Assembly: GCA_950295325.1 (NCBI GenBank)
Contig: OX485807.1
Span: 14,411,001-14,475,000, forward strand
Origin: Polytrichum commune
Lineage: Eukaryota > Streptophyta > Polytrichopsida > Polytrichales > Polytrichaceae
Direction of reading: 5' to 3'
Length of the DNA stretch: 64,000 nt
This document shows positions 19,408 through 34,937 of the stretch, in pieces. The notes under the pieces are model-generated. The model was not told the DNA's origin, ran no database searches, and was given only the letters and a program-made list of their open reading frames with translations. Each line of letters opens with the position of its first letter. Positions within the stretch are counted from its first letter, which is position 1. The translations under genes and the position numbers were made by a program.

Positions 19408-19475
19408 CAGCGACGCTATCTTGTGAGCGGTGAGCAGTGAGCGGCGAGCGGTGAGCAGAAAATTTGAAATTTTTT
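19408..19475 (+). repeat. Left terminal inverted repeat of the 15.5-kb element
   Basis: Rich in a 7-base unit GTGAGCG/GTGAGCA, present about four to five times here and about three times in the right terminus at 34878-34937. Such short subterminal repeats are typical transposase-binding sites, though binding is not shown. Confidence 0.75.
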
Positions 19476-19832
19476 TAAAACATTTTTGATTTTTAAAAAA
19501 AAAAATCAGAATATTTGACTTAATTCTTACACCGAGTAGGACTCTTCGTATAGTTTCTTTACAAATATGACTAAAAGTAGATGGTACGTTTAACTGTGGA
19601 TGGTGCTTATAACCGTGGAGTGGAAGAAATTATAAACTTTTGAAAAAACCATCCATAAAAAGAAACGGAAGAAAACGAAAAAAAAAATTTAGAAAAAAAA
19701 CTTCCAAAATAATAGGGAACATAAAATAAGGGATAAGAATGTAAATTAAAATTTTAAGTATTTATCCACGAAAACTCAAAAAAAGGAAAACAGATAATAA
19801 AAAAAATGAATTTTTTTTGTCCATGTCCTTTT

Positions 19833-19845
19833 GGATCCGAGACAA
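19833..19845 (+). repeat. Half copy of the recurrent palindrome
   Basis: GGATCCGAGACAA is the right half plus centre of the 20-bp palindrome found seven more times between 25 and 31.3 kb. The left arm is lost (CCTTTTGGATCC). Confidence 0.6.
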
Positions 19846-20081
19846 GAATATTCTATAGTCACAATTGAGAATAAAAAATAGAGAAAAATAGTCATTTTCA
19901 TGGCAATCCTTTTGTATCCAAGATTGGAAAATTCATGGTTTCATAAATATGATCTTTTAATAATGTGCAGATTCAAATACAAATCAAAGGCAATTCAAAT
20001 CAATTCCGCTATTTGAAGATGGGATTCACGAACTAAAAAGATCACTACCAAGCACCTTGAAGCATGAAGGAAGTCAAGGAA

Positions 20082-31885: not shown

Positions 31886-33821
31886 TTAGAGGAAGAGGCA
31901 GTAAATCGATTTGAGAAAATTATGGAGGAAAATGCTATCATATTGAAGACCGAGGACTTGCCCAACCCAGTGGACGATATTGGAACTTGGATTGAGTCCC
32001 ATTCTATTATTTTGTGGGGGAAGGCTTTCAAAGAATTTTTTTCAAAGGATGGCACTTATACGAAGAAGGAGTTATTTCTTGTCCAAGCTGGTACTGAGAA
32101 TGCTATGAAGAGAGCTATCTTGAGATATTTCTGGAGGGAGTTGGTGATTAAGGGGGCCATTGATAGGAAGAACATTCCTCAACGTTTTAACAAGTGGGTG
32201 GATGTTTCTAGTAGTGAATGTATTTTTTCAGACTATCAGAAAAAATATTTTGGAAGACCTCATCTTCTTCAATGTCCTTGGTATCTTGAGTTAAAGGAAA
32301 ATGAAAGATGTCCTGGAGAGGAGAGAGCCTTGAAGGCTAGTTGTGACAATATGATGCAACAATTAGAGGTTGAGAATTTGGTGCATATTGAAGAAGATGC
32401 ATCGGAGGTGGGTGATGACAGCTCTATATCTCACAAACAAAGGAAGAAATTGGCTGACAATAAAGCAAAGGTTGAAACTCGTTTGAAGGAGAAAGAAGAA
32501 AAGAAGAAATGCAAGGAGGAGGAAATAAAGTTGAAGAAGGAGGTTGTGGCACGGAACAAAGAGTTGGCGAAGCTTGTGTTAAAGGAAGGGCCAGAGAAAC
32601 TTCTTTCTTATGTGGGTATTTCTCCTTCAAGCAGTAGCATGCCCGCTACTATAAGTCCTTTGGTTTCTCAGGTGCCTCTTTCCGTTGCCCTTTTTTCTTC
32701 ACAAACGGTGTATACTATCCCATGCTCGTAGTTGGATGATGTAGAGAGTGGGATAGAGATCATCAATGATAGTCCTTCAGGTATTTTGGACTTGTTTGAT
32801 GATGTTACTGAGAGTGATGAGCCAAAGATTTGGAGGCGTATGAAGGCATGGATTAAAGATCATCAAGGTAAAAAGATTCGAAATTATGTGGGTTATGAAG
32901 CTGACAATATAGTTGATCTTGTTATCTTTGATGTTCCAGAGGATTTACCTGTTCTTGGACTTGGTATTGCTGGTGAAATTCCACCTTGGAACCGTCATCC
33001 AAAGACTAAACCAGAGGGTATAGATGGAATAGTGGAATTCATATGGATCAAGAGGCATTTTGAGTTTGCCATGCAGTTTCTTCAAGATGATGGTGCCCTC
33101 ATTGTATTTTATCCTGATTCAAAGTTTATATCCAATGAGCTTTTATCTTGGGTGGATTAGGCAAATTTTCAGGAGGAATCCAAGTGGTTTGCAATTAACG
33201 GCCTTCCTTTTACTGTCCCGGATCATCCATCCCGTATGCACAAAGTGTTTCATGGTGAAATGCTCTGTTAGAAAGGAAAATCCGGATGAAGAGGTTCCAA
33301 TGTCCAATTTTGTGTTTTGTGACCATCCTGAACTTCTTGCACAGGGCATCAAGTTGTCATCAGATGGACATCTCACAAACCTCATTGATGTTGATTCTCT
33401 AACTGTTCAGTCGGAGAATAGAATGCCATTTAGAGGTGCACGGAAGAAGTCTTCTAATTACTCATCGCTCTTATTGATCTCTGCACGGTTGAAGATGACA
33501 TTGTCATGGACCTCACAGCCTCCACATGTATTATATTTTCCCTATACTTTTCTTTTGATATGTTTTGTCATTAATTTATACCAAGTACTAAATGGTATTG
33601 TTTATTTCAGGTGCTTCTGTTCGGGCATCAAAGAGTCTTCATCGTCATATTATTGCATTTGAATATGACAATATCTTATACAAAGAGGTATTGGTTCGTC
33701 TTCTTCCCCAAGCTGAAGAAGTTCAGTCAGTCAAAGTTACAAGGTCTTCTCCAAAGAAGAAACGCCCTTTGGAGAATGCAGATGAGCCAGAGAAGAAGAC
33801 TGTTGCCAAGCGAGCTTGTAA
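31886..33821 (+). pseudogene. Beta-class amino-methyltransferase-like segment of the fusion gene
   Basis: After a charged coiled coil (KVETRLKEKEEKKKCKEEE) come, in order: VDLVIFDVPEDLPVLGLG (D-V-P-E at 32930-32941, where motif IV D/S/N-P-P-Y/F is expected); PWNRHPKTKPEGIDG; FAMQFLQDDGALIVFYPD (the strand following motif IV); FRGARKKS (motif X-like, just before the SAM pocket); LLIALIDLCTVEDDIVMDLT (in the shifted frame); and ASVRASKSLHRHIIAFEYDN. The last parts resemble motif I and II, 'DPFxGxGTxxxA...R..igiE.D', which in beta-class N4C/N6A enzymes lie C-terminal of motif IV. Motif IV and I are degenerate: Gly positions are lost and the splice at 33527/33611 creates Cys. Either a TAG or a 60-bp intron lies at 32672-32731. 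Catalytic activity is doubtful even before decay. Phage proteins often fuse ParB and such methylases. Confidence 0.6.
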
Positions 33822-34211
33822 GTAAGTCTACACTATCTATCTTCAAATTTTTAAACATGTCCTCAATTTTTCTTACCAACATTTTTAAATGGTTGATTTT
33901 TACTTGTTTATAGATGGCGCAAGGAAGCGTTGAAGTCCTCTATGATGAAGTATGATGGAAGCATTCTCTCACACTATATCAGTAAGATTAGAAGCCCTAT
34001 TAGACCTCTTCAACTTCCTTTTCATGCTGAGATTGTTGCAGAAGCGCATGCAGCTACTTCATCACCAGACCTTTCTCCAGAAAAACATAGTAGTTGCCGT
34101 CCTGTAGAAAAATATTTCCATATTTCTGCAGAAGTTGATGGATTATCTAGTGACAGTGATAGCGAGGAAGGATGGATTGAGGCTTCTAATGATGTTGAAA
34201 TGTCTTCGTGA

Positions 34212-34877
34212 TCATTGAAGCACTTCACATAAAAATACGTGTATTTCCTTCTAATATACGATCTATTTTTATTTTTATGAACCTTGGATTTTAAGAACTT
34301 TAAAGGCTTTGAAGATCTACATAGCATTGTCCTCGACATCGACGACCAATTGCTTTGTTCCGATGTTCAAACGGAAGCTAGACATATGTATGATGAATTG
34401 TGATGATCGTTTGAGACGTTTTAGCAAAACCTCAACAAACTGACATTTAATGTCAAGCATAAAAAATTCATGCATTCGCGACAAACGACTCTGCATGACA
34501 TATTCAAACAATAAAATACAAACCCTGATTTTTGTTAAAAAAAAATTGCACACTTAACCATGATGGGTACTTAAATGGATGCGTACTTTATTAACCACTT
34601 TAATGTCTAGATGATGACTATTTAAATTGGGCCATTTGAAAAAAATTCAACCATGTTGATATGCCATGTTGGGAGATTCTAATGTACCAAAGGTGTTTTT
34701 TTTTGTTTACAAGGTCTTTCCAAAAAAATTCATTTGTGTGAACTGCAAAAATCCCTCCGCGGGAATAGGACCTTGATTAATTTTTGTTAAATAATATGTA
34801 GATTTTATAGAATGAAACCATAAATTCTCCACGGTCATAGGGTCTATATCATACATTTCATTGAAAAATTTGAAGAA
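34212..34877. other. Noncoding tail of the 15.5-kb element
   Basis: AT-rich, no gene. The fusion gene ends in TGA at 34209-34211; 3'-UTR and polyadenylation signals are not distinct. Confidence 0.4.
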
Positions 34878-34937
34878 TAAAAATTCAAATTTTCTGCTCA
34901 CGGCTCATTGCTCACCGCTCACAAGATAGCATTCCTG
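34878..34937 (-). repeat. Right terminal inverted repeat of the 15.5-kb element
   Basis: Reverse complement of the left terminus: GCTATCTTGTGAGCGGTGAG, CAATGAGC, GTGAGCAGAAAATTTGAA. A 10-bp duplicate CCCCACCCAC follows at 34938-34947. Confidence 0.75.

Follow-up and report, generated by a model that had tools for sequence, protein, structure and literature searches.

A 64,000-nucleotide window of the genome of the moss Polytrichum commune (contig OX485807.1, positions 14,411,001 to 14,475,000; 14.41–14.475 Mb of contig C5 in the assembly searched) contains at 19408–34937 a 15,530-bp element with two divergent coding regions. It is a decayed copy of a large family of Mutator-type DNA transposons that carry a transposase and, divergently from it, ParB-like and methyltransferase-like (MTase-like) exons, and both its anatomy and the integral linkage of the second gene are in our view close to certain. 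Arrays of palindromes lie beside the second gene, and suggest that the element recognises its own DNA. We propose that the ParB/MTase-like protein is a self-recognition factor acting on these palindromes, and we give this reading as a whole a probability of about one half.

The two ends of the element were compared directly. The left terminal inverted repeat (TIR) reads CAGCGACGCTATCTTGTGAGCGGTGAGCAGTGAGCGGCGAGCGGTGAGCAGAAAATTTGAA from 19408, and the right TIR, as the reverse complement from 34937, reads CAGGAATGCTATCTTGTGAGCGGTGAGCAATGAGCCGTGAGCAGAAAATTTGAA; they are about 60 bp long, are built partly of 7-bp units (GTGAGCR), and differ by one such unit and a few substitutions. The element is flanked by CCCCACCCAC, identical over 10 bp on both sides, and the inverted termini of about 60 bp with a 10-bp direct repeat outside them, described in an earlier note on this DNA, are thus borne out. 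The TIR core 16-mer GCTATCTTGTGAGCGG, with up to three mismatches allowed, occurs in only two places in the 64 kb, at the two ends (the mean for shuffled sequences is 0.25); a chance origin of the termini was rejected on the grounds of this rarity, the exact duplication, and the many genomic copies. Both genes are disrupted in the window copy, a point absent from the earlier note, and the second also contains what is probably a solo long terminal repeat (LTR), an insertion that is missing from all five other long copies. The ends and coding features are as follows:

19398..19407, no strand: left target-site duplication CCCCACCCAC, an exact match to 34938–34947
19408..19468, plus strand: left TIR with GTGAGCRG-type heptamer units, from direct comparison of the ends
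20082..21485, minus strand: transposase exon 2, with a SWIM-like C-x-C...C-x-H end and an in-frame stop at 20757–20759 (relative P0032, 97%)
21486..21550, minus strand: transposase intron, 65 bp, GT-AG, from direct reading
21551..23617, minus strand: transposase exon 1, with a DDE-like core and a stop at 22292–22294
28677..29271, plus strand: ParB-like exon (VWDGNHRHIAW), with a frameshift near a T-run at about 29185 and an in-frame stop
29390..29605, plus strand: second ParB/MTase exon (VDHIAQHF...)
29771..31048, no strand: probable solo LTR, a 1278-bp TG...CA insertion with CCGT on both sides, in the third ParB/MTase exon
31886..33526, plus strand: methyltransferase-like exon, with DVPE for DPPY, DLTAST at motif I, and several stops and frameshifts
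33610..33822, plus strand: exon continuing MTase motif I (GASVRASKSLHRHIIAFEYD)
33915..34211, plus strand: C-terminal exon and stop
34876..34937, minus strand: right TIR, from direct comparison of the ends
34938..34947, no strand: right target-site duplication CCCCACCCAC, matching 19398–19407

The source genome searched for further copies comprises 407.8 Mb in 64 contigs. A search with the left end gave 43 matches, with 40 of 556 candidates scored, and 20 of these ends were taken with 10 kb each; six belong to long copies and 14 to short copies with two ends. Five further long copies have the transposase on the minus strand and the ParB/MTase gene on the plus strand, in the same order and orientation as in the window. 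Right ends are present in four of the five, which gives elements of 13,782, 12,971, 13,896 and 15,956 bp, and three of these four have exact 10-bp duplications; C3:0.58 has no right end within the DNA examined and is excluded from the duplication count. Paired termini 5–25 kb apart with both genes between them, which the earlier note proposed to search for, are therefore a recurrent arrangement in this genome. The transposase is complete or nearly so in three of the five and is a 51-residue C-terminal remnant in the other two, and the sixth long left end (L033) has a transposase remnant only, with no right end or ParB within the 10 kb examined.

The 14 short two-ended derivatives (L017–L029 and L031) are 352–592 bp in length and have the same terminal core as the two-ended long copies examined; about 340–490 bp of the left end is kept in 13 of them, and about 160–250 bp of the right end in 10, at the cut-off used. 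Of the 14, 12 are flanked by 10-bp duplications that have no more than one mismatch (11 are exact), and the remaining two have none; that of L027 is ambiguous, as it sits in a GTA microsatellite. These copies are a family of the type of miniature inverted-repeat transposable elements, with 10-bp duplications. Because 14 of the 20 left ends are two-ended and 12 have duplications, they are non-autonomous derivatives, and the alternative that the terminal sequence is an ordinary lone repeat was rejected, even though it is often gene-free.

Linkage between the two genes recurs genome-wide. The ParB search scored 150 of 1028 candidates, 18 of them at 89–98% identity and 132 at about 32–44%, and the transposase search scored 64 of 2533, 12 at 97–98% identity and 52 at 54–56%. 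At least 37 of the 64 scored transposases (at least 11 of the 12 close and at least 26 of the 52 distant ones) have a divergent ParB within 15 kb, compared with a mean of 0.17 and a maximum of three linked transposases in 1000 trials of random ParB placement; as both lists cover scored candidates only, transposases with no ParB partner cannot count as absence. At one transposase of about 55% (C7:1022859), the ParB found within 15 kb has the other orientation. For at least nine of the 18 near-identical ParB copies a left end was scored 6–13 kb upstream in the same orientation, and for at least 11 a divergent transposase was scored. The match covers the full 198 residues in 12 of the 18, and 11 of those are stop-free. 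At 17 of 18 loci of the close (A-type) MTase, a same-strand A-type ParB lies no more than 25 kb upstream, a count from which six secondary pieces of loci already counted are excluded; the spacing is constant at 1978–1983 bp in nine of the 17 pairs and reaches 9.6 and 19.5 kb in two others. This ParB–MTase linkage is shown in the window's subfamily only. Because the copies share gene order and the ParB linkage recurs across the genome, the ParB/MTase gene is an integral component rather than a one-off capture, a possibility rejected given both genes in all five further long copies and the 37 linked transposases; the proposal of the earlier note that the gene is an integral accessory of a giant element family is supported.

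The transposase had been described as a SWIM-finger enzyme of a Mutator-like element (MULE). The C-x-C...C-x-H end, the TIRs and the 10-bp duplications agree with that description; no Pfam MULE model is matched significantly. The MULE assignment appears to be supported also by two Asp residues that are invariant in the 35-row alignment and by weak Pfam matches to Transposase_mut (in 2 of 35, best 0.034) and SWIM (in 6 of 23, best 0.076). The window copy reads GFMANSA, with Asn where all 35 aligned relatives hold Asp (GFMADSA), and this Asp is kept in the long copies that retain the stretch (C3:37.92, C1:19.53 and C3:0.58). A frameshift at about 21,500 was considered and rejected, as the site is the 65-bp GT-AG intron. 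Relatives that are 95–97% identical and have open frames are present in the protein collection (P0016, P0017, P0032 and P0042), and the source genome likewise holds open frames of ParB and transposase.

The palindromes are an addition to the earlier note. With up to three mismatches, TTGTCTCGGATCCGAGACAA occurs at seven sites in the window, all seven within the element, and at none in shuffled sequences. These sites and a more degenerate one are:

19826..19845, no strand: degenerate subterminal half-palindrome TCCTTTTGGATCCGAGACAA, 4 mismatches
25044..25063, no strand: palindrome TTGTCTCGGATCCGAGACAA
25879..25898, no strand: palindrome, extending to about 28 bp
27448..27467, no strand: palindrome, 1 mismatch
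28212..28658, plus strand: three tandem units of about 154–159 bp adjoining the ParB start upstream, with one palindrome each (28228, 28387, 28541)
31237..31256, no strand: palindrome, 2 mismatches, in an apparent ParB/MTase intron

Six long copies, the window included, contain 8–17 TTGTCTCGGATCCGAGACAA-like sites each (up to four mismatches), and in each copy all but two lie between the divergent genes; the exceptions are one degenerate site close to the left end and another site in the apparent ParB/MTase intron. A lack of palindromes in the flanks of the long copies carries little weight because the flanking DNA is short (about 0.1 kb on the left and up to about 3 kb on the right). We also note that the noncoding interval of the element contains, at 25755–25995, two 95-bp direct copies that are 99% identical, with starts 146 bp apart and a palindrome between them.

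For other subfamilies, six ParB genes were hand-picked from the 132 distant ones, and the 4.5 kb preceding each was examined. Two divergent subfamilies carry other palindromes in the same interval, and one locus carries only a repeat array. Subfamily B (L039–L041, ParB 42%) has a different 28-bp palindrome, AAACCCTGTGCGTTAACGCACAGGGTTT, together with a second one, and at a strict threshold has 13, 27 and 8 sites per 5 kb, respectively; the background at this threshold in other sequence is three palindromes in 112 kb and six in 48.5 kb. Subfamily C (L042 and L044) has GGGTTCGG-GA-CCGAACCC, for which a laxer threshold, one that lacks a background count, gives 4 and 10 sites, respectively. One locus of each subfamily was extended, and both have a divergent transposase, at 54% (B) and 50% (C) to P0042; the extended subfamily B locus also has the TIR core GCTATCTTATGAGCGA and heptamer units at its left end, beyond its transposase. 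The tandem unit upstream of ParB is of similar length and different sequence in the window's subfamily (about 154–159 bp) and in L043 (978–5000, about 156 bp).

The plus-strand exons at 28677–34211 probably make up one gene and one protein, judging from their order and spacing. The MTase-like part would be of the beta-class N6/N4 amino-methyltransferase type, an assignment that is better founded than that of the ParB-like part. First, a read-through composite matches Pfam N6_N4_Mtase (PF01555) with E=1.6e-5 and 25.4 bits, below the curated cut-off of 26.7, and the relative P0001 matches it with E=8.3e-4; there is also a match to phrog_3008, a DNA methyltransferase, with E=9.5e-5. Secondly, the motifs have the permuted order IV to I, which is the beta arrangement. 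Thirdly, Foldseek with a poor AlphaFold model (mean predicted local distance difference test score, pLDDT, of 44.2) returns mostly S-adenosylmethionine (SAM) methyltransferases among the 50 matches listed, with CcrM at rank 2 (E=3.9e-3) and M1.HpyAVI ninth; none of 1154 matches has E≤0.001. The conserved ParB core (PLCR, VR, GYR, FY and DGNHR..AW) has 30 invariant columns in 12 rows, with conservation reaching down to 34% identity, and DGNHR is unchanged in 10 of the 12 aligned rows and altered at one residue in two. A divergent spliced gene with ParB-like and amino-methyltransferase-like motifs had been noticed earlier, and the DGNHR motif and the N6_N4_Mtase match are in keeping with it; the label ParB-like is a purely motif-based one. 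Among the protein relatives listed, the one with an organism name is P0018, a protein of the moss Ceratodon purpureus with 70% identity across 88% of the query.

What such a protein might do is suggested by the VANDAL elements. Passages of PMC5735166 describe that VANC21 binds a nine-base motif, arrays of which lie in noncoding and intron sequence of its own element family, that VANDAL relatives use other motifs, which change together with the protein, and that the arrays evolve via tandem duplication. The nearest functional precedent is VANDAL/VANC, whose design the moss elements share, here with palindromes and a ParB/MTase-like protein. As far as those passages go, the two share a Mutator-type element with an accessory gene and tandem arrays of element-specific motifs, both noncoding and intronic, with a motif that differs by family; unlike the moss sites, however, the nine-base motif of VANC21 is not a long palindrome, and the moss protein is ParB-like and beta-class MTase-like. 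Motif arrays in noncoding regions that differ between subfamilies are found in the moss as well, the array of L043 having no long palindrome.

We propose that the ParB/MTase-like exons give rise to one protein, the self-recognition factor of the element. Its ParB-like part would recognise the palindromes between the two gene starts, in the intron, and near the left end, and recognition of the palindromes by the second protein is, we judge, an even bet. The MTase-like part would act on or read the palindrome-bearing DNA, and element copies would thereby be kept expressed against host silencing and/or readied for transposition, as VANC does for VANDAL in Arabidopsis; anti-silencing or transcriptional control as the output is a tentative suggestion made by analogy. 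Protein and sites would be expected to co-diverge across subfamilies because each subfamily has its own palindrome or repeat. In its broadest form, which we consider doubtful, the proposal would describe a eukaryotic ParB/parS-like transposon system, in which a ParB-type protein fused to an MTase-derived domain binds the palindromes, marks or coats the element's own DNA, and has co-diversified with its sites over well more than 100 gene copies in one moss genome; it would be a counterpart to VANDAL/VANC that arose by convergence from phage-like parts.

Several results weigh against the proposal. First, MTase catalysis is doubtful because motifs IV and I both deviate: in the 14 rows that cover it, motif IV reads DVPE (10), DIPE (1), DVHE (1) or DVPK (2), none with the aromatic residue of the catalytic (D/N/S)PP(Y/F/W), and motif I reads DLTASTG or variants, conserved yet non-canonical. 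Moreover, P0002 and P0003 lack an N6_N4_Mtase match (P0001 is the one of three relatives scanned that matched), and a PDB profile search with the MTase part found no methyltransferase. Secondly, for the ParB-like part, phrog_1033 ('ParB-like partition protein') is matched weakly in 3 of 11 members (best 0.14), no ParB model is among the Pfam scan matches, the best Pfam match of L043 is the unrelated-looking Phage_tube_C (4e-4), PDB sequence searches gave no relevant match, and the AlphaFold model, with a mean pLDDT of 38.6, is useless. Thirdly, L042, L043 and L044 have no palindromes at the strict threshold, and L043, with 26 tandem units of about 156 bp, has no long palindrome at either threshold. 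Fourthly, in 52 divergent (31–38%) MTase rows a scored ParB lies upstream within 6 kb in one and at 25 kb in one, and a transposase lies within 30 kb in one; these are rows covering the C-terminal half, used out of 129, with 53 weaker or partner rows excluded. The 52 distant loci may be another kind of locus, perhaps another mobile family. Many of their MTase-like open frames are 416 aa long, several have identical scores, and they are mostly away from scored ParB and transposase genes.

A last point on the same side is that the transposase, rather than the second protein, may be what binds the palindromes. In this alternative, which we think unlikely, they serve as promoter sites or for transposase binding, and the ParB/MTase protein has another target, for example in general self-marking of element DNA; it would fit with sites upstream of both genes, arrays between two divergent starts, and one degenerate site that is subterminal. 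However, the sites nearest to the genes are mostly in the tandem units just upstream of ParB, and the palindrome is missing from 11 of the 14 short non-autonomous copies, with only a degenerate half-site in the other three. Because all 14 are without a full site, the full palindrome is unneeded in cis for mobilisation.

The site arrays also bring to mind a partition-like or clustering role, in which the ParB-like part loads on the palindromes as ParB does on parS, spreads as a clamp, and clusters element copies or excised circles. In parABS systems arrays of palindromic sites lie beside the gene, and here too palindromic arrays adjoin the gene and DGNHR is intact in 10 of the 12 rows, but neither the PDB searches nor the ParB model gives support from the fold, and we hold this role to be improbable. 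There is still less to recommend the palindromes as hairpin-prone satellite repeats with no protein partner: several do lie in tandem arrays of about 64 or 157 bp, whose copy number varies between elements, but four of the window sites (25044, 25879, 27448 and 31237) are outside the array and have mostly different flanks, with the 20-bp core conserved. That the ParB/MTase gene is a passenger, captured from elsewhere and contributing nothing, is very improbable, despite the tendency of MULEs to pick up host gene fragments (in passages of PMC6446971) and broken frames somewhere in all six long copies inspected, given that at least 37 of the 64 transposases scored, from several subfamilies, show the same arrangement, that the ParB core is conserved even at 34% identity, with 12 rows sharing 30 invariant columns, and that 12 of 18 near copies match over the full 198 residues, 11 of them free of stops.

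The preferred reading, of a Mutator-type family with its own self-recognition factor, can be placed among known systems. With plant lineages of the MULE superfamily (compare PMC6446971) the moss element shares 10-bp duplications, long TIRs, an apparently DDE-type transposase with a SWIM-like finger, short two-ended non-autonomous derivatives and extra open reading frames. It differs in that its transposase has no significant Pfam MULE match, its TIRs are heptamer-based, and its ParB-like and MTase-like accessory gene has no counterpart in the passages of the PMC6446971 table. Fusions of ParB with N6/N4-MTases are frequent in phages according to passages of PMC12704722, and the ParB-CTPase to N6_N4-MTase fusions of phages and prophages described there likewise join a ParB-like part to an N6/N4-type MTase part, whereas the moss gene is eukaryotic, spliced, and in a DNA transposon. 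A tblastn search of 50,697 phage records with the ParB part (P0018) gave no match at E≤1, protein scans with ParB and transposase found no viral relatives, and IMG/VR gave five chance matches to the terminal 16-mer, all without heptamers. A DNA methyltransferase on a eukaryotic transposable element is also found in the retrotransposons of dinoflagellates and charophytes that have acquired cytosine-5 (C5) methyltransferases (PMC5890265), although those are retrotransposons with a C5 enzyme and the moss element is a DNA transposon with an amino-MTase-like fold. No ParB/MTase-bearing Mutator-like element is described in the titles and abstract starts of the best-ranked papers in the PMC open-licence literature, which is not proof of absence.

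If the proposal is true, self-recognition encoded by transposons arose more than once in plants, as VANC in Arabidopsis and, independently, as a phage-like ParB and MTase design in mosses. The many palindrome–ParB pairs in one genome would then be a natural series for studying the joint evolution of a DNA-binding protein and the site it binds, and there would be a case for testing whether land plants have made an amino-MTase fold into a protein that reads or writes marks on transposon DNA.

Elsewhere in the window there are two further open frames of some length. One, of 325 aa, is at 53068–54045 on the plus strand, and is a putative Harbinger-type (DDE_Tnp_4-like) transposase, to judge by its appearance. 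The other, of 584 aa, is at 57019–58773 on the minus strand and is probably a host gene, whose product may, as a guess, be a TGD4-like chloroplast envelope protein.

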